Assembly (NCBI GenBank): GCA_016184125.1
Contig: JACPDG010000039.1
Location: 1-64,000 of the forward strand
Length of the DNA stretch: 64,000 nt
Direction: 5' to 3'
Origin: Candidatus Rokuibacteriota bacterium
Lineage (GTDB): Bacteria; Methylomirabilota; Methylomirabilia; Rokubacteriales; CSP1-6
The position numbers were made by a program, and so were the translations under genes. Shown piece after piece: positions 4,955 to 63,070 of this stretch. The notes beneath the pieces are model-generated. The model was given only the letters and a program-made list of their open reading frames with translations, ran no database searches and was not told where the DNA came from. The stretch's first letter is position 1. Every line of letters starts with the position of its first letter.

Positions 4955-5430
4955 GGGAGGCTCCCGCCGCGCCGCGCCGCGGCCGCCTGCTCGATCGCCC
5001 GCACGATGCTCACGTAGCCTGTGCACATGCACAGGTTCCCGGCGATCGCCGCCCGGATCTCCTCGCGGCTCGGCGCCGGGTTCTCGGCCAGGAGCTCGTG
5101 CGCCGCGACGATCATTCCCGGCGTGCAGAAGCCGCACTGGAGCGCGTGGCAATCCCGGAAGGCGCTCTGCAGCGCGCTCAACCCCGCGGCCGGTGTCAGC
5201 CCCTCGATGGTCGTCACCGTCGCGTCCTCGAGCTGGGCGGCGAACAGCAGGCAGCTCCGAGCCGAGCGCCCGCCGACCAGGACGGTGCACGCGCCGCACA
5301 CGCCGTGCTCGCAGCCGACGTGGGTGCCGGTGAGGCCGAGGTCCTCGCGGAGAAACTCCGCCAGCGACCGCCGCGGCGGCACGTCGCGCTCGACGGCGCG
5401 GCCGTTGACGGTGAGCCGGACCGAAATCAT
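4951..5430 (-). CDS. (2Fe-2S)-binding small subunit of molybdenum hydroxylase
   Basis: MISVRLTVNGRAV...GCEHGVCGACTVLV...CGFCTPGM...NLCMCTGY; start ATG lies at the edge of a palindromic repeat. Confidence 0.9.
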   Translation of the reverse strand: MISVRLTVNGRAVERDVPPRRSLAEFLREDLGLTGTHVGCEHGVCGACTVLVGGRSARSCLLFAAQLEDATVTTIEGLTPAAGLSALQSAFRDCHALQCGFCTPGMIVAAHELLAENPAPSREEIRAAIAGNLCMCTGYVSIVRAIEQAAAARRGGSLP

Positions 5431-5534
5431 GGGGGGCCTCGAAGGGCCCCCCAAGCCCCCCTTTGGCGGCTCGGAAGCGGCCCGGGAAACCCGGGCCGCT
5501 CCTCGGGCACCGGGTTCGTTCACGGGCTCTGAGA
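5428..5534 (+). repeat. Modular GC-rich palindromic repeat, copy A
   Basis: atcatggggggcctcgaagggccccccaagccccc...gcggcccgggaaacccgggccgctcctcgg...gttcgttcacgggctctga. Confidence 0.85.
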
Positions 5535-9436: not shown

Positions 9437-10222
9437 TTGAACGTCTCCATTGTCCGGGCCGCGTCTCTCCTCATCGTGATCGGGATCGGCCTCGTGCCGA
9501 GCGCCGCGCTGGCAGGTGGTCGCCACGCGGGCGGCCGCCTCACGGTCGTCGTCGGGTCGCGGCCGAGCTTCGCTGGTCACGGATTCGGGCATGCCCGCGG
9601 GACCCGCTTCGGTCATCGCGGCTTCGCGCAGGCCCCGAAGGCGGGCTTCGGTCATCGCGGATTCGCGCATGCCCCGAAGGCGGGCTTCGGTCATCGCGGC
9701 TTCGCGCATTCGCCGTTCGTCCACAAGCATCGCGGCTTCCACAAGCCGTCGTTCATCCGTGGGTTCGTGCCGTTCGTCTCCTCGACGGCGATCGTGGTCT
9801 CGGCCCCGCCACCTGTCTTCGTCGGTCCTCCCGTCGCGGCTGTCGCGGTCCCGCCAGCGCCCGTCGTGGTCGCGCCGCCACCACCGCCGATGCCCAGGGT
9901 GGTCGAATACGCGCACGGACGATACGAGCTTCGCGGCGACGGCGTGACGACGCCGTACGTCTGGGTCTGGATCCCGAACCCTCCGCCACCTCCGCCGCCG
10001 CCTGCGCCAGCGTCTCCGCCCGCGGAGTCACAGGCACCGCAAGCACCGCCGGCGGCTCGAGACGCGTCGCCCGCGCGCTCGGCTCAGATCTATTGCTTCA
10101 CCGACGAGCACGGCGTCACGACGTGGACGGATCAGTTGAACAGGGTCCCCGAGCGATACCGCGCGGAGGCCAGGCAGGCGAACGAGGGCGGGGCATCCCC
10201 TCGCTGCCCGGCGAACAGCTAG
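9437..10222 (+). CDS. Secreted Gly/His/Pro-rich repeat protein with DUF4124-like C-terminus
   Basis: Signal peptide; 13-aa repeats AGFGHRGFAHAPK; C-terminal IYCFTDEHGVTTWTDQLNRVPERYR. Confidence 0.7.
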   Translation: MNVSIVRAASLLIVIGIGLVPSAALAGGRHAGGRLTVVVGSRPSFAGHGFGHARGTRFGHRGFAQAPKAGFGHRGFAHAPKAGFGHRGFAHSPFVHKHRGFHKPSFIRGFVPFVSSTAIVVSAPPPVFVGPPVAAVAVPPAPVVVAPPPPPMPRVVEYAHGRYELRGDGVTTPYVWVWIPNPPPPPPPPAPASPPAESQAPQAPPAARDASPARSAQIYCFTDEHGVTTWTDQLNRVPERYRAEARQANEGGASPRCPANS

Positions 10223-14273: not shown

Positions 14274-15320
14274 ATGGAGCTCGGGATCTTCCTGGAAGAG
14301 GCGCGGCAGGGGATCGACCAGGCGACCGCATTCGCGGAAACGTTCGCGCTGGCGGACGCAGCGGAAGAACGAGGACTGGACAGCGTGTGGCTCGGGGAGA
14401 TCCACTTCCTCCCGACGCGGTCGGTGATCTCGTCGCCGCTGCTCGTCGCCACCGCGATCGCCACGCGCACGCGACGCCTGCGCGTCGGCACGGCGGTGCA
14501 CCTCATCCCGCTGAACAACCCGCTCCGCATCGCCGAGGAAGTCGCGACGCTGGACCACATCAGCCTCGGACGCGTCGACTTCGGCGTCGGGCGCAGCGGG
14601 TCGCCGCGCGCGTACGATCTCTACGGGATCCCGTACGGCGAGAGTCAGGCCCGGTTCCGCGAAGCGCTCGAGATCATCCGGCGCGCGTGGGAGGGCGAAC
14701 CGTTCAGCTACGCGGGCGAGTTCTTCAAGTTCGACAGGGCGACGGTCGCGCCTCGCCCGTACCAGACACCGCACCCGCCCATTCTCATGGCCGCGACGAG
14801 CGAGGAAACGTTCCCGCTGGTCGCCCGGCTCGGGCGCGGCATCCTCGTCGGCCTCCGTGGGATGCACATCTCCGTGCTCCGCGAGCATCTCCGCCGGTAT
14901 CGGGAGACGTGGCGCGAGGCGGGCCACGCCGGCGCGGGGCGCGTGTGCCTGCGGATCCCGCTCTACGCGGCGCCCACCGAGCGCGAGGCGCTCGACGATC
15001 CGCGCGAGAGCATCATGTACTACCTCCGCCGGCAGGCGGACATCACCCGTGCGCCGGCTGGCCGCGCCGGCGCGCTCGCCACCGAGCGGCTCCGCGCCCG
15101 CGCCGAGCAGCTCGACGCTCTCTCCTACGAGGAGGTGCTGCAGGAGCGCGTCGTGTTCGGAACCGCGCCGGCGATCATCGACCGGTTGACGCAACTGCGC
15201 GAGGAGCTCCGGCTGGACGGCGTCGTGTTCGAGCTCGGCTCGGGCGGTCTCATTCCCTCCGAGCGGGAGTTGCGGAGCCTGCACATCGTCGCGGACAAGG
15301 TCGTCCCCGCGCTCAAGTAG
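14274..15320 (+). CDS. LLM-class flavin-dependent oxidoreductase
   Basis: MELGIFLEEARQGIDQATAFAETFALADAAEERGLDSVWLGEIHF...RVDFGVGRSGSPRAY. Confidence 0.88.
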   Translation: MELGIFLEEARQGIDQATAFAETFALADAAEERGLDSVWLGEIHFLPTRSVISSPLLVATAIATRTRRLRVGTAVHLIPLNNPLRIAEEVATLDHISLGRVDFGVGRSGSPRAYDLYGIPYGESQARFREALEIIRRAWEGEPFSYAGEFFKFDRATVAPRPYQTPHPPILMAATSEETFPLVARLGRGILVGLRGMHISVLREHLRRYRETWREAGHAGAGRVCLRIPLYAAPTEREALDDPRESIMYYLRRQADITRAPAGRAGALATERLRARAEQLDALSYEEVLQERVVFGTAPAIIDRLTQLREELRLDGVVFELGSGGLIPSERELRSLHIVADKVVPALK

Positions 15321-15470
15321 ATCATGGGGGGACTATCGAAGCCCCCCGACCCTCGTGCGAAGGGGGCTCACGCCCCCCTCGTACTCCCCCGGCCCCGCGC
15401 TCGGAGCGCCCCGGGGGGTGCGCGGACGCACCCGCCAAAGCCGTGGCGCTCCTCGACTACCCGATTCCTC
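15321..15470 (+). repeat. Modular palindromic repeat, copy B
   Basis: atcatggggggactatcgaagccccc...cgctcggagcgccccggggggtgcgcggacgcaccc...ggcgctcctcgactacccgattc. Confidence 0.8.
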
Positions 15471-18851: not shown

Positions 18852-18990
18852 CGTTCGTGAACGAATCGCGTCGTCGAGGAGCGCCACGGCTTTTGCCGGG
18901 TGCGGACCCGAGGCGCGGCCCGGGTTCCCCGGGCCGCGGCCGAGCGTCGGGGGGTTTGGGGGGCCATTTCGGGGCCCCCCATGATGTCAG
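18852..18990 (-). repeat. Modular palindromic repeat, copy C
   Basis: gttcgtgaacgaatcgcgtcgtcgaggagcgcc...gcggcccgggttccccgggccgc...ggggggccatttcggggccccccatgatgtcag. Confidence 0.85.
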
Positions 18991-20903: not shown

Positions 20904-20937
20904 CGCGTTCTCCGCCTCTCCTGGCCTGCGAACCATA

Positions 20938-21060
20938 TCGGGATATCGAGGAGCGCCCCGGGTCCCACCGGTGCGTCCGTGCACCACGGGTGCGTCCGCG
21001 CACCCCCCCCGGGGCGCTTCCGAGCGCGGGGGGTGCGGGGGCCATGTCGGGGCCCCCACA
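20938..21060 (-). repeat. Modular palindromic repeat, copy D
   Basis: gatatcgaggagcgccccggg...ggtgcgtccgtgcaccacgggtgcgtccgcgcacc...gggggccatgtcggggccccc. Confidence 0.8.
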
Positions 21061-21161
21061 TCCCTCGCCACGGGCGCGTGCAGCGTAGTGCGTCCGGGCG
21101 ACGCGATCAAGCGGCAGCGACTCGTTGACGGCGGGCGCGGCGGACGCTAGCCTCCTCTCGG

Positions 21162-21260
21162 TTCATGGAGGCCCCGAAATGGCCCCAGACCCCCAAACGC
21201 TCGACGGGCCCGGGCTGAGCCCGGGCCCGTCTCGACCACAGCGATTCGTTCACGAGCTCC
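21162..21260 (+). repeat. Modular palindromic repeat, copy E (divergent)
   Basis: ttcatggaggccccgaaatggcccc...gacgggcccgggctgagcccgggcccgtc...gattcgttcacgagctc. Confidence 0.7.
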
Positions 21261-24743: not shown

Positions 24744-24747
24744 CTCG

Positions 24748-24793
24748 GTTCGAGCAACAACCGACCGCCGCAGCGGTCGATTGTTGCTCGAAC
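24748..24793. repeat. 46-bp hairpin repeat (IR46), copy 1
   Basis: gttcgagcaacaaccgaccgccgcagcggtcgattgttgctcgaac. Confidence 0.85.
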
Positions 24794-24904
24794 TCTCACG
24801 CGCCTGCCGTCCCGGCCGCTCGCCGCGCGCGAGCGGCACGCCGACGGTGAGACCGTGCGGCAGGGCGTGCGAGGGCGTCGTCAGCACGACCCGTCCGACG
24901 TGCG

Positions 24905-32009: not shown

Positions 32010-32015
32010 CTGTTT

Positions 32016-32112
32016 TCACGGGGGGACTCTCGAAGCCCCCCATGCCCCCCACCGCTCGCACGCGCCCCGGGGGACCCGGGGCGCGGCTCGGTCTCGGATA
32101 CGTTCACGAACT
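32016..32112 (+). repeat. Modular palindromic repeat, copy F
   Basis: ttcacggggggactctcgaagccccccatgcccccc...gcgccccgggggacccggggcgc...gatacgttcacgaactc. Confidence 0.8.
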
Positions 32113-32122
32113 CCCCTCCGTG

Positions 32123-32240
32123 TTCATGGGGGGACTCTCGAGGCCCCCCCTGCCCCCCGCGCTCGGCGCCGTCCCGGAAGGGGTGCGCGGACGCACCTGC
32201 GAAACCCGGGACGGCCCTCGATGACTCGATTCGTCCATGG
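32123..32240 (+). repeat. Modular palindromic repeat, copy G (tandem with F)
   Basis: ttcatggggggactctcgaggccccccctgccccccgcgctcggcgccgtcccggaaggggtgcgcggacgcacc...gggacggccctcgatgactcgattcgtccatgg. Confidence 0.85.
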
Positions 32241-35898: not shown

Positions 35899-36167
35899 GC
35901 GCTTGAGGACGAGAGCGGGGCGCTCTCGTGTTTTCGACCGTAGCATCCACCCCCAGTGAAGTCAAACGACGGAGCGCTGCACGCAAGGTCTGGAGCACAC
36001 TTACGGCGGCGTCGCCACATCCGGCATCGTCACACATTCGCCAGCGGCGAGCGCGGCGTGTCACCCCGGTTCCCCGGGGCGCTCGAGCGCGGCGGCTGCG
36101 CGGCCTGGCGCGCCTCCGAGCGTGGAGGAGTGCGCGTGCGTCAGCGCCTCCCGACCGCCGAGCCACC

Positions 36168-36250
36168 CCGAGGAGCGCCCCGGGTTTCCCGGGGCGCTTC
36201 CGAACGTGGGGGGGTATGGGGGGCCATGTCGGGGCCCCCCATGAGATCAG
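36168..36250 (-). repeat. Modular palindromic repeat, copy H
   Basis: gaggagcgccccgggtttcccggggcgcttcc...ggggggccatgtcggggccccccatgagatcag. Confidence 0.85.
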
Positions 36251-44851: not shown

Positions 44852-46349
44852 ACACCACGCGATTGACGCCCTTCACCTCGTTGATGATCCGGTTGGAGAT
44901 ACGCCCCATGACCTCGTAGGGCAGGCGTGCCCAGTCGGCGGTCATCGCGTCGAGGCTCGTGACCGCACGGAGCGCGACGACGTGCGCGTACGTGCGGAAG
45001 TCTCCCATCACGCCGACGGTCCGGATCGGCAGGAGGACGGCGAACGTCTGCCACAGCTCGCGGTCGAGACCGGCGGCCCGGATCTCGTCCTGGACGACGG
45101 CATCCGCGTCGCGGAGGACGTCGAGCCGGTCGGCCGTCACCTCGCCCAGCACGCGGATGGCGAGCCCGGGGCCCGGGAACGGCTGGCGCCACACGATCTC
45201 CGACGGCAGGTCCAGCACCTCGCCGACGCGGCGCACCTCGTCCTTGAAGAGCTCGCGCAGCGGCTCGAGCAGCTTGAACTGCATCCGCATCGGGAGCCCG
45301 CCGACGTTGTGGTGCGTCTTGATCGTCGCGGACGGGCCGCGGTGCGACACCGACTCGATCACATCGGGATAGAGGGTCCCCTGCGCGAGCCAGGGGACGT
45401 CGCCGAGGCGCTTCGCCTCGTCCTCGAACACCGCGATGAACTCGGCGCCGATCCGCTTGCGCTTCATCTCCGGGTCCGTCACCCCGCGGAGCAGCTCGAG
45501 GAAGCGGTGCGAGGCGTCCACGTGGACCAGGTTGATGTGGAAGTTGTCGCGGAACGTGTGGACGACCGCCTGGGCCTCGCCCTTGCGCAAGAGCCCGTTG
45601 TCGACGAACACGCACGTGAGCTGATCGCCGATCGCCTCGTGGACGAGGACGGCGACGACGGAGGAATCGACGCCCCCGGACAGCGCGCAGAGCACGCGGT
45701 CCTTGCCGGCGCGCTCGCGGATCGCCCCGACGGTCGTGTCGACGAAGGACGCCATCGACCACGAGCGGCTCACGCCGCAGAGGTCGAGAAAGTTCTCGAG
45801 GATGCGGGTCCCCTGCGGAGTGTGAGCGACCTCCGGATGGAACTGCACGGCGTAGAGCCGCCGCGCCTCGTCTCCCATCGCGGCCACCGGGCAGTTGTCG
45901 GTCACGCCCATCGGCGTGAATCCCCGCGGCGCCCGCATCACGACGTCGCCGTGGCTCATCCACACGCTGAGCCGCCCGCGCGCATCCGGCGTCACGCCCT
46001 GGAACAGCCGGCTCGGAGCGATGAGCTCGACCTCGGCCTTGCCGTACTCCCGACGCTCGGACGGCACGACCTCTCCGTCGAGCAGATAGCCCATGGCCTG
46101 CATGCCGTAGCAGATGCCGAGCACAGGTACGCCGGCATCGAACAGCCCGCGCGGCGGGAGCGGCGCGCCTTCCTCGTACACGCTCGACGGCCCGCCCGAC
46201 AGCACGAACCCCCTGTACCCGGCACCGAGCAACTCGTCGATCGACTGCGTCGGCGGAAGGATCTCCGAGTACACGGAGAGCTCGCGGATGCGGCGAGCGA
46301 TCAGCTGCGTGTACTGAGACCCGAAGTCGAGGACCGCGATCTTGTCCAA
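44808..46349 (-). CDS. guaA: GMP synthase (glutamine-hydrolysing)
   Basis: [30 protein letters not shown]...[10 protein letters not shown]...[12 protein letters not shown]...KPPSTIEWE. Confidence 0.96.
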
Positions 46350-46352
46350 TCA

Positions 46353-46492
46353 GATCATGGGGGGACTATCGATGCCCCCCAAACCCCCGCGCTCGGAGCG
46401 CCCCGGGGGGGTGCGCGGACGCACCCGTGGTGCGCGGACACACCCGCCGAAGCCGTGGCGCTCCTTGACCACCCGATTCGTTCACGGCTCTC
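46353..46492 (+). repeat. Modular palindromic repeat, copy I
   Basis: atcatggggggactatcgatgccccccaaacccccgcgctcggagcgccccgggggggtgcgcggacgcacccgtggtgcgcggacacaccc...gattcgttcacggctc. Confidence 0.88.
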
Positions 46493-46574
46493 GGATCGCC
46501 CCACCGGATCACACATCGACGTCGGCGTACGGTGGTCCGCACGCTGGGTTCACGCGAACGGTGCCGTCGGTCGG

Positions 46575-47868: not shown

Positions 47869-48687
47869 TCAAGCGCGCCCCTCGGGCGCGGCCGCGCGCC
47901 CCTCGGGCGCGGCCGCGCGCCCCTCGCGCGAGAACTCCCACAGCAGCCGCAGGCCCTCGAGCCTCAGGTCGTCGTTCACCTCGTCGATCGAGGTGGCGAC
48001 GTCGGCGATGAGCGACACGAGGCCGCCGGTCCCGATGACCTTCGGATCCCCGCCCATCTCGGTCTTCATCCGCGTGATGATGCCGTCGACGAGCCCCGCG
48101 TACCCGTACACGACGCCGGACTGGATGTTGGTGACGGTGTTCCGCCCGATCGCCTCCTTCGGCCGCACGAGCTCCACGCGGTAGAGCCGCGCCGCGCGGC
48201 TCACGAGCGCTTCCACGGACGTGGCGATGCCCGGCGCGATCGCCCCACCGATGAACGCGCCCTGCTCGTTGACGCAGTCGAACGTCGTCGCCGTGCCGAA
48301 GTCCACGACGATCAGCGGAGCGCCGTAGAGGACGGTGGCCGCGAACGCGTCAACGAACCGGTCCGCGCCGACTTCCGCGGGGTTCTCGACGGCGAGCGGC
48401 ATCGGCGCGTTCAGCGCCGGCTGGACGAAGTACGGCTCGATGCCGAAGTACTGCTCGCACATCCACTGGAGCGTCTGCTGGACCGGCGGCACGACGTTCG
48501 AGATCGCGATGGCGTCGATGGCGTGCCGGTCGAGGCCCCGCGTGCGGAGAAGTGTCTCGATGAACAGGCCATACTCGTCCGCCGTCTGTTCCCGCCGGCT
48601 CGTCAGCCGCCACGAGCCCACGAGGCGCCGGCCGTCGAACACGCCGATCTTCGTGTTGGTGTTGCCGACGTCCGCGACGATCAGCAT
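47869..48687 (-). CDS. coaX: Type III pantothenate kinase
   Basis: MLIVADVGNTNTKIGVFDGRRLVGSWRLTSRREQTADEYG...VVDFGTATTFDCVNEQGAFIGGAIAPGI; C-terminal EGRAAAP repeats. Confidence 0.95.
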   Translation of the reverse strand: MLIVADVGNTNTKIGVFDGRRLVGSWRLTSRREQTADEYGLFIETLLRTRGLDRHAIDAIAISNVVPPVQQTLQWMCEQYFGIEPYFVQPALNAPMPLAVENPAEVGADRFVDAFAATVLYGAPLIVVDFGTATTFDCVNEQGAFIGGAIAPGIATSVEALVSRAARLYRVELVRPKEAIGRNTVTNIQSGVVYGYAGLVDGIITRMKTEMGGDPKVIGTGGLVSLIADVATSIDEVNDDLRLEGLRLLWEFSREGRAAAPEGRAAAPEGRA

Positions 48688-49754
48688 GACGCCCTCCCTC
48701 GCTCCGCCCGCGCGACCTCGACCACCTCGCCGGCGCTGATACGGCGTTCGGCGGCGCCGTCGGCGACCACGAGCGCGCCGTCCATCCCGATGTCGACGGC
48801 GACGCCTTCGACGTCGTCGATGCGCACCCGCCGGCCGATCGTCAGCGCGCGATCGAGCCACCGTGCGCGGACGGGCGCGAACCCCTCGGACTCGAACCGC
48901 GCACGCCAACGGTCGAGCGCGTCCAGGACCGCGTCGAGGACCACGTCGCGGTCGACGTCATGGCCGGTCTCCAGGAACAGGGACGTCGCCCGGCCGCACA
49001 GGTCGGCCCCGAACTCCGACTGGCGCACGTTGATGCCGATCCCGATGACCACCAACATGGGGGGCCCCGAGATGGCCCCCCATACCCCCCCGTCGCTCGC
49101 AACCGGCCCGGCACCGCCGGGCCGGTGCTCGGGCACCCGCTCGGCCACCGCGGGCCCCGACATGGCCCCCACACCCCCCGCGCTCGGAAGCGCCCCGGGA
49201 CACCCGGGGCGCTCCTCGACTACCCGCTCGGCAGGCGGTGTCGCCGGCGAGATCCGGGACTCGAGCAGGATGCCGGCGATCTTGCGCTCGCGCACGAGCG
49301 CGTCGTTCGGCCACTTGAGCCGGACGTCGACGTTCGCCACCGATTCGAGCGCGTCCGCGACCGCGACCGCGGCGACGAACGAGTAGAGCGGCAGCTGGCT
49401 CACGGCGACGCGCGGCCGAATCAGGATCGACGCCAACACGCTTGTCGCGGGCGTGGCTGTCCAGGCGTGACCCCGGCGTCCCCGGCCCTGGCGCTGGAAG
49501 TCAGCGACGACGACGGTCCCGTCGGGCGCGCCGTGGGCGGCCAGCTCGAACGCGAACGTCTGGGTGGAATCGACCTCGCGGAGACGGAGGACGCAGTGGC
49601 TCGCGCGCGCGGGCTCAGGGCCCGTGAACGGATCGGGTGGTCGAGGAGCGCCACGGCTTTGGCGGGTGCGTCCGCGCACCACGGGTGCGTCCGCGCACCC
49701 CCCCCGGGGCGCTCCGAGCGCGGGGGGCTTGGGGGGGCTCGATAGTCCCCCCAT
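48681..49754 (-). CDS. birA: Biotin-[acetyl-CoA carboxylase] ligase carrying in-frame repeat insertion
   Basis: LREVDSTQTFAFELAAHGAPDGTVVVADFQRQGRGRRGHAWTA...LKWPNDALVRERKIAGILLE...(repeat-coded)...VVIGIGINVRQ; the only in-frame ATG seen near the 5' end is inside repeat L. Confidence 0.85.
   Translation of the reverse strand: MGGLSSPPKPPALGAPRGGCADAPVVRGRTRQSRGAPRPPDPFTGPEPARASHCVLRLREVDSTQTFAFELAAHGAPDGTVVVADFQRQGRGRRGHAWTATPATSVLASILIRPRVAVSQLPLYSFVAAVAVADALESVANVDVRLKWPNDALVRERKIAGILLESRISPATPPAERVVEERPGCPGALPSAGGVGAMSGPAVAERVPEHRPGGAGPVASDGGVWGAISGPPMLVVIGIGINVRQSEFGADLCGRATSLFLETGHDVDRDVVLDAVLDALDRWRARFESEGFAPVRARWLDRALTIGRRVRIDDVEGVAVDIGMDGALVVADGAAERRISAGEVVEVARAERGRASC
49056..49146 (+). 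repeat. Modular palindromic repeat, copy J (inside birA)
   Basis: aacatggggggccccgagatggccccccatacccccc...ccggcccggcaccgccgggccgg... Confidence 0.85.
49147..49230 (+). repeat. Modular palindromic repeat, copy K (inside birA, tandem with J)
   Basis: ccgcgggccccgacatggcccccacaccccccgcgctcggaagcgccccgggacacccggggcgctcctcgactacccgctcg. Confidence 0.85.
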
Positions 49755-49761
49755 GAAGTCA
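49621..49761 (-). repeat. Modular palindromic repeat, copy L (birA 5' end)
   Basis: cccgtgaacggatcgggtggtcgaggagcgccacggc...ggtgcgtccgcgcaccacgggtgcgtccgcgcacc...ggggggctcgatagtccccccatgaagtcag. Confidence 0.88.
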
Positions 49762-49807
49762 GTTCGAGCAACAATCGAACGCCCGGGCGGTCGATTGTCG
49801 CTCGAAC
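49762..49807. repeat. 46-bp hairpin repeat (IR46), copy 2
   Basis: gttcgagcaacaatcgaacgcccgggcggtcgattgtcgctcgaac, just downstream of the valS stop. Confidence 0.85.
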
Positions 49808-49809
49808 TC

Positions 49810-52437
49810 TCAGCTCCGGCCGTCACCGAGCCACCCGAGGCTCGCCTCGAGCTTCTCGCGCACGCTGCGCTCGGCGGCGAGCCGACCCCGCTCGCGCTCC
49901 ACGACCTCGGCCGGCGCGCGCTCCACGAACTCCGGACGCGCGAGCTTGCCCTCCAGCATCGCGATCGTCTCGCTCGCGCGCCGGATCTCCTTCGAGAGCC
50001 GCTGGCGCTCGGCGGCCAGGTCCACGACGCCGGCCAGCTCGACGTACACCTCGGCACCACCGGCCACGGCGAGCGCAGCGCTCGCCGGCCGTGTCGCTGC
50101 CGGGTCCACCGTCAGGCGTGCGCGCGCGAGCGCCTCGATCGTCCGGCGACTCGCCTCGAACAGCGCCCCCTGCTCGGCCGAGGGCCGGACGGTCACGCCG
50201 AGCGTCGCCGACGGCGGCACGCGCATCTCGCCGCGTACGGTGCGGATCGCGGTCACGAGGTCGATCACGAGCCCCATGGTGCGCTCGGCGCCCGCGTCGC
50301 CCGCCTTGCGGCGCGCACGCGGGTACGGCGCGACCATGATCGACTCGCCGTCGTGCGGCAGCCGCTGCCAGATCTCCTCGGTGATGAACGGCGTGAACGG
50401 GTGCAGCAGGCGCAGGGTCGTCTCGAGCACGGTGACGAGCGTGTGCTGCGTGCGCAGCCGCTCGTCGGGCGTCTCCGGGCGGTAGAGCGAGAGCTTGGCG
50501 ATCTCGAGGTACCAGTCGGCGAACTCGTGCCACAGGAACTGGTAGATCGCCGACGCCGCGTCGTTGAAGCGGTAGCGTTTCAGGTGCCCGCGCACGGACG
50601 CGATCGCCGCCGCGAGGCGCGCCTCGATCCAGCGGTCGGCCTCCGACGGTTTCACCCGCTTCGCACGCTTCGCGTGGTAGCCCTCGAGATTCGAGAGCAC
50701 GAGCCGCGAGGCGTTCCAGATCTTGTTCGCGAAGTTGCGGTAGCCCTCGATCCGGTCCTCGGCGAGCCGGATGTCGCGTCCCTGCGCCGCGAGCGCCGCG
50801 AGCGTGAAGCGGAACGCGTCCGTTCCGTACTTGTCGATCACGACGAGCGGGTCGACGACGTTCCCGCGCGTCTTCGACATCTTCTGGCCTTCGGCGTCCC
50901 GCACCATCGCGTGGATGTAGACGTCGCGGAAGGGCACCTCGCCCATGAAGTGCAGGCCCGCCATCGCCATGCGGGCCACCCAGAAGAAGAGGATGTCGAA
51001 GCCGGTCACGAGCACGGACGTCGGGTAGTAGCGCCGGAGATCCTCGGTGTCGTCCGGCCAGCCCAGCGTCGAGAACGGCCAGAGGGCCGACGAGAACCAC
51101 GTGTCGAGGACGTCCGGATCCTGCCCCACGGCTCCGCCGCACGTCGGGCACGCGGTCAGGTCGGTGCGCGAGACGTGCACCGAGCCGTCGCGCTCGCAGT
51201 ACCACGCCGGAATCTGGTGCCCCCACCAGAGCTGGCGGGAGATGCACCAGTCGCGGATGCCCTCCATCCAGTGGTAGTACGTCTTCGCCCAGCCGCGCGG
51301 GACGATCTTGATCCGACCCGACCGCACCGCCTTGATCGCCGGCTCGGCGAGCGGCTTCATCCGCACGAACCACTGCTTCGAGACGAGCGGCTCGACGACG
51401 GTCTTGCAGCGGTAGCACAGACCGACCGCGTGACGGTACGGCTCGATGCGCTCGATGAGGCCGAGCCGCTTCATGTCCTCGACGATCGCCTTGCGGCAGT
51501 CGAAGCGATCCATGCCGGCGTACCGACCGGCGAGCGCGGTCATCTTGCCGTCGAACCCGATGACCGAGCGGATCGGCAGGCCATGGCGCTTGCCGATCTC
51601 GAAGTCCACCGGGTCGTGCCCAGGCGTGACCTTGATCAAGCCCGTGCCGAAGTCCGGGTCGACCGCCTCGTCGCCCACGACGCGCACGCTGATCGTGCCG
51701 TCGACGGACGGGATGTCGAGCGTCTGGCCCACGAACTGCGCGTAGCGCTTGTCCTTCGGATGGACCGCGAGGCCCGTGTCGCCCAGCTTGGTTTCCGGCC
51801 GCACGGTACCGAGCGTCACCGGACCGTACCGGATGTAGACGAACTCCGCGTCCCGCTCCTCGCGCTCGACCTCGAGGTCGGCAAGCACCGTCTGGCACCG
51901 GGGACACCAGTTGACGATGTAGTCGTCGCGATAGATCAGGCCCTCTTCCCAGAGCCGCACGAAGACCTCGCGGACCGCTCGTGAGAGCCCCGCGTCCATC
52001 GTGAACCGCTCGCGCGACCAGTCGCAGGACGAACCGAGCCGCCTCAGCTGGCGGATGATGGTCCCGCCGGACTCCTCCTTCCACCGCCACACGCGCTCGA
52101 TGAACGCCTTGCGGCCGAGGTCCTCTTTCGTCTTGCCCTCGGCGGCGAGCTGTCGCTCCACGACGTACTGTGTCGCGATCCCGGCGTGGTCCGTCCCGGG
52201 CAGCCAGAGCGTGTTGAGGCCGTCCATCCGCTTCTGGCGGACGAGGATGTCCTGGAGCGTGTTGTTGACCGCGTGCCCCATGTGGAGCGAGCCGGTGACG
52301 TTCGGGGGCGGGATGACGATCGAGTACGCCGTGCCCGGCCGTGACGGGTCGGCCCGGAAGTACCCGCGGCCTTCCCAGAATGGATACCACCGCGCCTCGG
52401 TCTCGTGCGGGTCGTAGCGATCGGGGATCTCGGTCAT
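49810..52437 (-). CDS. valS: Valyl-tRNA synthetase
   Basis: MTEIPDRYDPHETEARWYPFWEGRGYF...PPPNVTGSLHMGHA...KMSKTRGNVVDPL; C-terminal coiled coil. Confidence 0.97.
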   Translation of the reverse strand: MTEIPDRYDPHETEARWYPFWEGRGYFRADPSRPGTAYSIVIPPPNVTGSLHMGHAVNNTLQDILVRQKRMDGLNTLWLPGTDHAGIATQYVVERQLAAEGKTKEDLGRKAFIERVWRWKEESGGTIIRQLRRLGSSCDWSRERFTMDAGLSRAVREVFVRLWEEGLIYRDDYIVNWCPRCQTVLADLEVEREERDAEFVYIRYGPVTLGTVRPETKLGDTGLAVHPKDKRYAQFVGQTLDIPSVDGTISVRVVGDEAVDPDFGTGLIKVTPGHDPVDFEIGKRHGLPIRSVIGFDGKMTALAGRYAGMDRFDCRKAIVEDMKRLGLIERIEPYRHAVGLCYRCKTVVEPLVSKQWFVRMKPLAEPAIKAVRSGRIKIVPRGWAKTYYHWMEGIRDWCISRQLWWGHQIPAWYCERDGSVHVSRTDLTACPTCGGAVGQDPDVLDTWFSSALWPFSTLGWPDDTEDLRRYYPTSVLVTGFDILFFWVARMAMAGLHFMGEVPFRDVYIHAMVRDAEGQKMSKTRGNVVDPLVVIDKYGTDAFRFTLAALAAQGRDIRLAEDRIEGYRNFANKIWNASRLVLSNLEGYHAKRAKRVKPSEADRWIEARLAAAIASVRGHLKRYRFNDAASAIYQFLWHEFADWYLEIAKLSLYRPETPDERLRTQHTLVTVLETTLRLLHPFTPFITEEIWQRLPHDGESIMVAPYPRARRKAGDAGAERTMGLVIDLVTAIRTVRGEMRVPPSATLGVTVRPSAEQGALFEASRRTIEALARARLTVDPAATRPASAALAVAGGAEVYVELAGVVDLAAERQRLSKEIRRASETIAMLEGKLARPEFVERAPAEVVERERGRLAAERSVREKLEASLGWLGDGRS

Positions 52438-53513: not shown

Positions 53514-55883
53514 ATGAGGCGCCCGCCCATCGGTCTCATCGACCGGTACGTGCTGCGCGAGCTCGTGACGCCCTTCGCCTTCGGTGTCGGGCTGTTCACG
53601 TTCTTCCTCGTCATCGACCGGATCTACCAGCTGACCGAGCTGGTCATCACGAAGGGCGTGCCGTTCCACCTCGTCACCGGACTGCTCGTCTTCATGCTGC
53701 CGTCGTTCCTCGGCTACACGCTGCCGATGGCGCTGCTGGTCGCCGCCCTCCTTGCCGGCGGGCGGCTCGCGGGAGACCTGGAAGTCGTGGCCCTCAAGTC
53801 GGCGGGCGTGAGCCTCTTCCGACTGCTGCGGCCAATCCTGCTCGCCGGCGCCGCCGTGACGCTCGCCGTGGCGCTCATCACCATGTGGCTGACTCCCGTC
53901 GCCAACCGGCAGTTCCAGCAGCAGCTCTTCAAGATCCTCGAGTCGCGTGCCGTCGCGGGCCTCCGGGAACGCATCTTCAACACGACGTTCGGCGACGTCG
54001 TGCTCTACGTCGAGGACGTGAGCGCGTCGCAGGTCGCACTCCGCGGCCTGCTCGTGTCCGACGAGCGCGATCCGAGGCTGACGCGGATCATCACCGCAGC
54101 CGAAGGGCGCATCCTCACCGACGAGGCGACCCGCCGGATCGTGCTCCGGCTCATGGATGGCGCGGTCAACGAGGCGGACGTCATGCCGGCCAATCCGCCG
54201 GCCACCGGCGGCCTCCCGGCGCCGAGGGGCGGCGCCGCGGCGAACACACGCTACCGCTACACGACGTTCACGCTCTACGACATGACGCTGCCGCTCGACT
54301 CGCCGTTGCGCGGCGCGACCCGCCTCGACAAGCCGGAGCGAGACCTCTCCCTCGGCGAGCTCCGTCGCGAGATCGCGCGCCTCGCGGCCGACGGTCCGGG
54401 GCGCCGGCCGTACGAGTTGGAGTGGCACAAGCGCCTCGCGCTGCCGCTCGCGACCTTCGTGTTCCTGCTGGTCGGTTTCCCGCTCGCCGTGCGCTCGCAC
54501 CGTGGCGGGCGCAGCATCGCGCTGCTCGGCAGCCTCGCGATCCTCGTTGCGTACTACGTGCTCCTGACGTCGCTCGAGGGCATGGGACTTCGCGGGACGC
54601 TGCCTGTCTGGCCCGCGATCTGGCTCCCGAACCTGCTGTTCGCGACGGTCGGCACCACCCTGCTCGTCGCCACCGCGCGCGAGTGGCGCGCGCCCACGCC
54701 GCCGGCGGCCTGGAGACTGATGCACGCCATCGTCCGGCGCTTCCCGACGCGGCGGCCCGGTACCAGGCCCATCATCGTGTCGCCCGTCGGTCCGCGCGAC
54801 TCGACGCACATCGTCGACCGGTACGTGATCCGCGAGCACCTGGTCTTCATGGTGATCTGCCTCGGCATCGCGACGGCCCTGGTCCTCACGATCGACCTGC
54901 TCGACACGCTGGACCGGTACCTGCGCGTCAAGCCGCCGCTCGCCTATATCTTCCAGCACTTCCTCTACCGGCTGCCGGCCGACGTGCATGCCGGACTGCC
55001 CGTCGTCATGCTCGTCGCGACCGTCTTCCTCTTCATCACGCTCAACCGGCATCACGAGCTGACCGCGCTGAAGGCCGCGGGGATCAGCGTGTACCGTGTC
55101 GCCGCGCCGGTGCTCGCACTCGGCTCCCTGGTGGCCCTGGGTGCCGGGCTCTTCCAGGAGCTGGTCCTCCCGGTGCTGAACGAGCGCGGCGAGGAAGTCG
55201 ACCGCGTGAAGATACGCGGACAGCTTCCACGGCACCTGCAGTCCCGCCAGCGGCTGTGGGTCCGCAGCGCGGACTCCCGCTTCTATCGCGTGGAGCTGCT
55301 GGCGCCAGGAACGAACGACCTCTACGGTGTCACGGTCCTCGAGATCGACCGCAGCTTCCGTCTCCTGCACCGCCTCGATGCTCGGCGCGCGCACTGGACA
55401 CCGCGCGGCTGGGAGCTCTCGGACGGCGCGTTCCGCGATCTCGCCCCCGACGGCAAGGTCCGGACCGTCCCGTTTGCGCGGACGGCGCTCGAGCTACCGG
55501 AGTCGATCGACGACTTCACGCGCATCCAGAAACCGGTGAGCGCGATGAGCTATCGCGAGCTCTCCGAGTACGTGACGAGACTCGAAGCCGCGGGCTACCA
55601 GGCGCGCAAGTATCTCGTCGATCTCTACGAGAAGCTCTCGTTCCCGCTCGTGAACCTGGTGATGGTGCTCGTCGCCGTGCCCTTCGCCGTGCACTCGCCG
55701 CGCAGCGGGCGGCTCTTCGGCGTCGGCCTCGCGATCGTGATCATGGCGGGGTACCTCGTCGTGCACTACACCGCGATCTCGTTCGCACGCGCGGATCTCC
55801 TGCCGCCGATCGTCGCCGCGTGGACGGCCAACGTGATCTTCGCGGGCATCGGCCTCACGCTCTTCGCGCGCCTGCGGACCTAA
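53514..55883 (+). CDS. LptF-LptG fusion, LPS export permease (789 aa)
   Basis: Two YjgP/YjgQ modules: LIDRYVLRELVTPFAFGVGLFTFFLV...; then HIVDRYVIREHLVFMVICLGIATALVLTIDLLDTLDRY...HELTALKAAGISVYRVAAP. Confidence 0.9.
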   Translation: MRRPPIGLIDRYVLRELVTPFAFGVGLFTFFLVIDRIYQLTELVITKGVPFHLVTGLLVFMLPSFLGYTLPMALLVAALLAGGRLAGDLEVVALKSAGVSLFRLLRPILLAGAAVTLAVALITMWLTPVANRQFQQQLFKILESRAVAGLRERIFNTTFGDVVLYVEDVSASQVALRGLLVSDERDPRLTRIITAAEGRILTDEATRRIVLRLMDGAVNEADVMPANPPATGGLPAPRGGAAANTRYRYTTFTLYDMTLPLDSPLRGATRLDKPERDLSLGELRREIARLAADGPGRRPYELEWHKRLALPLATFVFLLVGFPLAVRSHRGGRSIALLGSLAILVAYYVLLTSLEGMGLRGTLPVWPAIWLPNLLFATVGTTLLVATAREWRAPTPPAAWRLMHAIVRRFPTRRPGTRPIIVSPVGPRDSTHIVDRYVIREHLVFMVICLGIATALVLTIDLLDTLDRYLRVKPPLAYIFQHFLYRLPADVHAGLPVVMLVATVFLFITLNRHHELTALKAAGISVYRVAAPVLALGSLVALGAGLFQELVLPVLNERGEEVDRVKIRGQLPRHLQSRQRLWVRSADSRFYRVELLAPGTNDLYGVTVLEIDRSFRLLHRLDARRAHWTPRGWELSDGAFRDLAPDGKVRTVPFARTALELPESIDDFTRIQKPVSAMSYRELSEYVTRLEAAGYQARKYLVDLYEKLSFPLVNLVMVLVAVPFAVHSPRSGRLFGVGLAIVIMAGYLVVHYTAISFARADLLPPIVAAWTANVIFAGIGLTLFARLRT

Positions 55884-55987
55884 ATCATGGGGGGCCCCGA
55901 CATGGCCCCCCAACCCCCCCCGCGCCCGGAGCCGTCCCGGGGAACCCGGGACGGCCCTCGATGACGCGCTCCCTTCACGGGCTCTGA
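55884..55987 (+). repeat. Modular palindromic repeat, copy M
   Basis: atcatggggggccccgacatggccccccaacccccc...gccgtcccggggaacccgggacggccctcgatgacgcgctcccttcacgggctctga. Confidence 0.9.
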
Positions 55988-56104
55988 AATCATGGGGGGC
56001 CCCGACCTGGCCCCCCAACCCCCCCCCCGCGCTCGGAGCGCCCCGGCCAAGCCCGGCCAAGCCGTGGCGCTCCTCGACCACCCGACGCGTTCACGGGCTC
56101 TGAG
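55988..56104 (+). repeat. Modular palindromic repeat, copy N (tandem with M)
   Basis: atcatggggggccccgacctggccccccaaccccc...cgctcggagcgccccggccaag...ggcgctcctcgaccacccgacgcgttcacgggctctgag. Confidence 0.88.
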
Positions 56105-56105
56105 A

Positions 56106-56151
56106 GTTCGAGCAACAATCGACTGCCGCGGCGGTCGGTTGTTGCTCGAAC
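56106..56151. repeat. 46-bp hairpin repeat (IR46), copy 3
   Basis: gttcgagcaacaatcgactgccgcggcggtcggttgttgctcgaac. Confidence 0.85.
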
Positions 56152-56335
56152 TGAGCCGGTGGCGGTAGCGGGCAGGGTCGGGTGACCCGTTCCCCGCCGT
56201 CGGTCGTTGCGTGCGAGCGCCGTCGGTTGGGAACGCGCCGGCGCATCAGTCGGGCGCAACGGGTCGTGGTCAGAGATCCTGCCCGGCTCTCGGCGCCGAG
56301 CGAGCCACCGCGCAACGGCGGGCGCGGCCTCCGCG

Positions 56336-61789: not shown

Positions 61790-61899
61790 CCGTCATCGAG
61801 GGCCGTCCCGGGTTTCACGGGTGCGTCCGCGCACCCCCCGGGACGGCTCCGAGCGCTGGGGGGTTTGGGGGGCCATTTCGGGGCCCCCCATGAAGTCAG
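61790..61899 (-). repeat. Modular palindromic repeat, copy O
   Basis: gtcatcgagggccgtcccgggtttcacgggtgcgtccgcgcaccccccgggacggctcc...ggggggccatttcggggccccccatgaagtcag. Confidence 0.88.
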
Positions 61900-62938: not shown

Positions 62939-62951
62939 CGTGGGACCAGCG

Positions 62952-63070
62952 ACGTGGGGGGCCCCGAAATGGCCCCCCACACCCCCCAACGCTCGGAGCG
63001 CCGCGGGGGGTGCGAGGACGCACTCGGGGAACCCGCGGCGCTCCTCGATTCGCCGACTCTCCGACACGTT
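62952..63070 (+). repeat. Modular palindromic repeat, copy P
   Basis: gtggggggccccgaaatggccccccacaccccccaacgctcggagcgccgcggggggtgcgaggacgcactcggggaacccgcggcgctcctcgattcg. Confidence 0.85.

Follow-up and report, generated by a model that had tools for sequence, protein, structure and literature searches.

How does a repeat that is spread through noncoding DNA come to be read as part of an enzyme, and can the enzyme go on working with it? The question is raised by the biotin protein ligase gene birA in a 64,000-nucleotide stretch of DNA (the window) from a Candidatus Rokuibacteriota bacterium whose draft genome is divided into 121 contigs (93% complete, 70% GC, 4 Mb). A first-pass annotation had noticed two tandem repeats in frame within the ligase, and this observation is confirmed by the sequence itself, by Tandem Repeats Finder and by a profile of the repeat family. 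The residues it quoted are found exactly, with KIAGILLESRISPAT running into PPAERVV...GPPM and from there into LVVIGIGIN.

Very probably, two units of a dispersed hairpin repeat have been inserted in frame into a loop that BirA can spare, the insertion is tolerated, and the ligase keeps working. The repeats would have spread among intergenic sites, and two tandem units would have entered, in frame, the β6-β7 turn of BirA (the position of dimer loop II in E. coli), which is probably a length-variable surface turn that catalysis does not need. The roughly 59 extra residues would then form a disordered, looped-out segment of a ligase that stays functional, and purifying selection would clear such insertions from nearly all other places within genes; the one in birA would have survived because it is in frame, free of stops and placed in a tolerant loop. 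If so, birA offers a clean natural case in which noncoding repeat DNA has turned into part of the protein sequence of a conserved, usually essential enzyme.

The insert and the ligase around it

Tandem Repeats Finder places the insert at 49062-49232 (period 87, 1.9 copies, score 223), and a profile built from 55 units of the family puts it at 49053-49233 on the minus strand, as two tandem units of about 59 codons in all. Unit 1, the first in the reading direction of birA, is 87 nt long (49146-49232; folding energy -53.8 kcal/mol, z -2.6) and unit 2 is 90 nt long (49056-49145; -58.2 kcal/mol, z -2.2), both more stable in folding than shuffled sequence. Hairpin 1 of unit 1 is formed by GGAGCGCCCCGGG-TGT-CCCGGGGCGCTTC (49187-49215), with a stem that covaries on both sides across 160 units of the family. 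Folding of unit 2 gives a hairpin 1 of ACCGGCCCGGC-GGT-GCCGGGCCGGT (49102-49126) and a hairpin 2 of GGGGGG CCATCTCGG GGCCCCCC and then ATG (49056-49083); all of these features lie on the minus strand. Together, the two units span 177 nt, which is divisible by three, and the birA frame crosses them without a stop. Because the unit has many further copies in the genome, the repeat is not a product of chance.

The gene that carries the insert extends over 48681-49682 on the minus strand, as defined by its open reading frame, by Pfam and by a coding model that places its start at 49682. Upstream lies valS (49810-52437, minus strand) and immediately downstream coaX, which encodes a type III pantothenate kinase and overlaps the birA stop (47869-48687, minus strand); the order valS-birA-coaX is conserved in six genomes. 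The 3′ end of coaX holds a 21-bp tandem repeat of 2.8 copies (47873-47930), which codes for GRAAAPE repeats at the end of the protein. BirA qualifies as a group I biotin protein ligase, a class marked by GRGR(R/L)G, KWPND and GIGIN motifs, the KIAG lysine and a C-terminal domain, with no N-terminal DNA-binding domain. Pfam recognizes one catalytic-domain family on each side of the insert (BPL_LplA_LipB, E 2.4e-16; BPL_LplA_LipB_2, E 6.8e-9), and the match to the C-terminal domain falls slightly below the cut-off (20.5 of 21 bits).

In the AlphaFold model, the core has pLDDT values mostly of 90-98, and its best fold matches among solved structures are biotin protein ligases. The insert falls between the adjacent strands 133-144 and 209-218, with pLDDT values of about 35-52 and no secondary structure. 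The first-pass expectation that the extra residues loop out thus agrees with the model, in which they are predicted to be disordered beside an intact core. Alignment puts the insert at residues 193-199 of E. coli BirA, which we take to be dimer loop II. That loop is known to be flexible and of variable length, and in place of a short loop the window enzyme has the ~59 repeat-coded residues added here. Dimer loop II has a part in E. coli BirA dimerisation, and is extended in that enzyme, whereas in M. tuberculosis BirA it shrinks to a turn of two residues (PMC2821413), so its length is known to vary among working ligases.

A full-length paralogue of 279 residues, about 38% identical, is encoded elsewhere in the genome (contig C21, L001:1372-2211) and has GRGRLG, KWPND and GIGVN motifs and a C-terminal domain; such biotin ligase paralogues are patchy across the bacterial family. 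A second ligase of this kind, which the first-pass annotation had named as grounds for doubt, could relax selection on the window gene, and one might suppose that the window birA is decaying or inactive and that the insertion was tolerated only because the C21 enzyme supplies the activity. We think this improbable. The window gene has no stop or frameshift, keeps its operon position and shows strong in-frame coding scores on either flank (0.94 and 0.88, compared with near zero in the insert itself). Its protein retains every residue that is invariant in an alignment of 41 BirAs of the family, and its branch in the BirA tree (0.57) is no longer than those of the insert-free relatives of the same genus (0.51 and 0.73), which gives no sign of decay. 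Most probably, BirA is made, active and unharmed, and the insert itself serves no purpose.

Repeat DNA also reaches into the beginning of the gene. The spacer between valS and birA is occupied by a second array of the hairpin family (49622-49761, plus strand), which contains two 19-bp CGGGTGCGTCCGCGCACCA repeats and is oriented opposite to the insert. The candidate start codons of birA (GTG at 49682, GTG at 49679 or ATG near 49754) all lie within repeat DNA, and the birA frame contains no ATG, GTG or TTG between 49679 and 49595, on the way to the first conserved BirA residues. Since the spacer is a repeat array and the frame offers no start further in, the start codon and at least the first 20 residues of BirA must be coded by the repeat. 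In relatives, a short leader opens birA immediately at the end of valS. A different short palindrome, GTTCGAGCAACAATCGAACG...CGATTGTCGCTCGAAC, directly follows the valS stop (49766-49812) and may be a terminator or a small repeat; it has two more copies in the window (24745-24794 and 56105-56154).

The hairpin family and its place in the genome

The repeat of the birA insert recurs at more than a dozen other sites in the window. Further arrays lie at 5422-5525, 15319-15470, 18899-18990, 20932-21060, 21161-21254, 32014-32239, 36165-36249, 46351-46408, 55880-56097, 61836-61898 and 62951-63061, nearly all of them intergenic by the gene model. The window also holds a 39-bp tandem repeat of 2.7 copies with 95% matches (9606-9709). 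Within 848 kb, about a fifth of the genome, we count 208 units of the hairpin family in 140 arrays (88 single, 39 double and 13 larger). The best copy outside birA, among the 40 scored of 698 first-look candidates in the genome, is 84% identical over 180 nt (E 2.5e-46). The repeat is found in high numbers in genomes of the same genus and also in those of several further genera within the bacterial family.

Each unit measures ~85-90 nt and contains two hairpins, one near GAGGAGCGCCCCGGG-TTT-CCCGGGGCGCTTC and the other near GGGGGGCCATGTCGGGGCCCCCC. Across the 160 units, one pair of the first stem occurs as A-T in 49, C-G in 43 and G-C in 15, and another as C-G in 80, G-C in 54 and T-A in 14. These counts rest on the six stem pairs given by RNAalifold, of whose output only these were used because it placed the hairpin loops poorly. 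Variation on both sides of the stem, together with folding that is better than shuffled, indicates that what is conserved in the family is the hairpin at the nucleic acid level. The lengths of the units have no bias toward multiples of three, and the open frames in most units merely follow from GC-richness. MITEs are marked by terminal inverted repeats and a target-site duplication; the hairpins here are internal to the unit, and the family offers no near-identical empty site at which a duplication might be read.

For each array, we used a coding model trained on the genome itself to ask whether it lies within an open frame that scores as coding on either flank. Only 3 of the 140 arrays pass, compared with 761 of 1400 size-matched random segments (54%): birA, clearest by far, a methyltransferase gene on contig C106, and C53:79055. 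The last is really the end of one gene joined to the start of another, and additional in-gene candidates from a survey of coding scores failed the flank test. Truly intragenic, in-frame arrays thus number 2 of 140 in the 848 kb sampled, and 138 (~98%) lie outside genes. The methyltransferase array (C106:105634-105725; L127:5634-5725) sits in the gene at 104889-106121, in a linker before RVVVWGAGSK. This near absence from genes, with unit lengths unbiased to three, suggests that the in-frame placement in birA is what selection has left over rather than a property of the element. Among intergenic arrays, 8 of 99 lie between divergent genes, whose spacers hold 18% of intergenic bases; by these crude gene calls, divergent pairs are avoided, as they are by REPs (PMC3733652).

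One loop in related genomes

The first-pass annotation had stated that only a short segment separates the two BirA strands and had proposed a search for the empty site in close relatives. E. coli BirA has only LTGKTGDAAQ here, the loop is uninterrupted in 50 of 58 genomes of the family, and the two same-genus genomes, G001 and G002, have an ordinary short loop with no insert. This empty site is visible in the protein rather than base by base, as the same-genus relatives are only ~55-62% identical at the protein level.

G001 matches both halves of the window birA at similar identity (66% and 57%), which bears on whether the assembly is wrong at this place, as the first-pass annotation had allowed. 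A draft of 121 contigs might have been misjoined at a repeat, where assemblies are prone to fail, or might mix strains. We can scarcely credit such an artefact, as the flanks are the two halves of one gene, in one frame and with the correct neighbors, and other genera also have inserts in this loop.

The eight genomes with an interrupted loop are that of the window and seven others from three other genera (G010, G023, G026, G060, G061, G065 and G070). The inserts of these seven are not related to the window hairpin repeat. Most consist of a second repeat, GGGCGTGTCGGAGCC...GGCCACC...CCGCTACAA[TC], single or in tandem, which is itself dispersed (26 to 62 matches per genome in ten genomes) and non-palindromic (fold z of +0.7 and +1.0, and -1.4 in a third case). 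Two unrelated repeats in one loop require at least two independent insertions. The presence of an insert changes seven times on the BirA tree, and well-supported branches force at least five of these changes, which may be gains or losses; within the clade of the second repeat, an early insertion may have been lost and regrown several times. The short loop of G005 resembles the remnant of an insert.

At E 1e-20, a second ligase is not detected in six of the seven other carriers, all judged from draft, incomplete genomes (G060 is 75% complete), and in the drafts of G010 and G026 none is found even at E 1e-3. Enzymes with such inserts therefore very likely work. The same observation argues further against decay of the window gene and, because most carriers of an insert in this loop have no second ligase in view, the C21 paralogue does not refute a tolerated insertion there.

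An insert could also be of use, if a longer dimer loop II altered oligomerisation, partner choice or stability and its recurrence reflected selection. The role of the loop in E. coli BirA dimerisation (PMC2821413) and the long inserts in 8 of 58 family genomes would fit such an account, but loop length (8 to 72 residues) and sequence follow no pattern, gains and losses are frequent, and the insert has no predicted structure. Close relatives do without an insert, and G010 and G071, whose DNA around the site is 96% identical, differ by the clean, in-frame presence or absence of 138 nt. We therefore hold an adaptive insert to be very improbable, even if the loop may have some effect on fitness or dimerisation. 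Pairs of empty and occupied alleles as close as this one, which concerns the second repeat, make tolerance, targeting and benefit testable against one another.

Targeting at the DNA level, by which the repeats would prefer a sequence in the birA loop and make it an insertion hot spot rather than only a tolerant place, is rather unlikely, and would be compatible with a tolerated insertion in the window gene itself. The second repeat would insert next to TACAAT: TACAA[TC] occurs within 35 nt after its end in 13 of 22 cases, compared with a background of 0.5%, and GTTACAAT is present in the birA loops of that clade even when these are short (G005 and G064). The motif may instead be part of the repeat, however, and the short loops resemble its deletion remnants; moreover, no TACAAT-type motif is present at the birA site of the window family. 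More broadly, though we think it rather unlikely, the β6-β7 turn may truly be a place where unrelated dispersed repeats enter again and again in this bacterial family, through targeting or through selection for longer dimer loops; one site would then repeatedly convert repeat DNA into new loops of the protein.

The second repeat often ends directly at CGCTACAATG, whose ATG in several cases resembles the start of the next gene (L196-L207 and L088-L115; G010, G026, G030, G070 and others). In G030, a 42-bp tandem array of this repeat precedes the apparent start of an epimerase-type gene (C89, ~46081-46560; L097, 1500-2000).

Relation to known small repeats

The birA insert belongs, by its features, to the general class of small dispersed repeats found within genes, which includes RPEs, REPs and RUs. 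The first-pass annotation had likened it to the protein-coding palindromic elements of Rickettsia. Like these, it is a short palindromic repeat in frame within an ordinary protein gene, and a cluster of RPEs can code for roughly 20 to 80 residues (PMC3733652). The likeness holds for birA as an in-frame, dispersed repeat but does not extend to membership among the RPEs: 138 of the 140 arrays lie outside genes and 2 within, the units do not keep to lengths divisible by three, the host is another and the sequence, as far as known, is different. Because this host genome is GC-rich (70%) and 4 Mb in size, similarity to a described RPE family is unlikely.

REPs of the GTAG and CGTC groups are likewise abundant hairpin repeats that lie mostly between co-directional or convergent genes and at times within genes (PMC3733652). 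The window family differs in its unit of ~87 nt and its head-to-tail tandem arrangement, and a partner transposase was not found: the genome, 93% complete, has one partial Y1_Tnp match to a REP-associated tyrosine transposase, with no repeat unit in its 1.8-kb locus. Placement in the REP superfamily was rejected, as GTAG stands at the hairpin foot in 0 of 130 cases and CGTC in 5 of 130. In recB of two Xanthomonas species, different REPs occur at about one site, which provides a precedent for recurrence (PMC3733652).

The enterobacterial elements RU-1, RU-2 and RU-3 (ERIC-like) are mobile intergenic sequences of 103-168 bp with open frames that also occur in frame within genes (PMC2759123). The resemblance lies in small intergenic repeats that also enter genes in frame; hosts and sequences differ, and here unrelated repeats share one enzyme loop across several genera. 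The birA insert is a further example of a kind already known from RPEs, REPs and RUs in genes and from recB, to which it adds two unrelated repeat families using one loop of one conserved enzyme.
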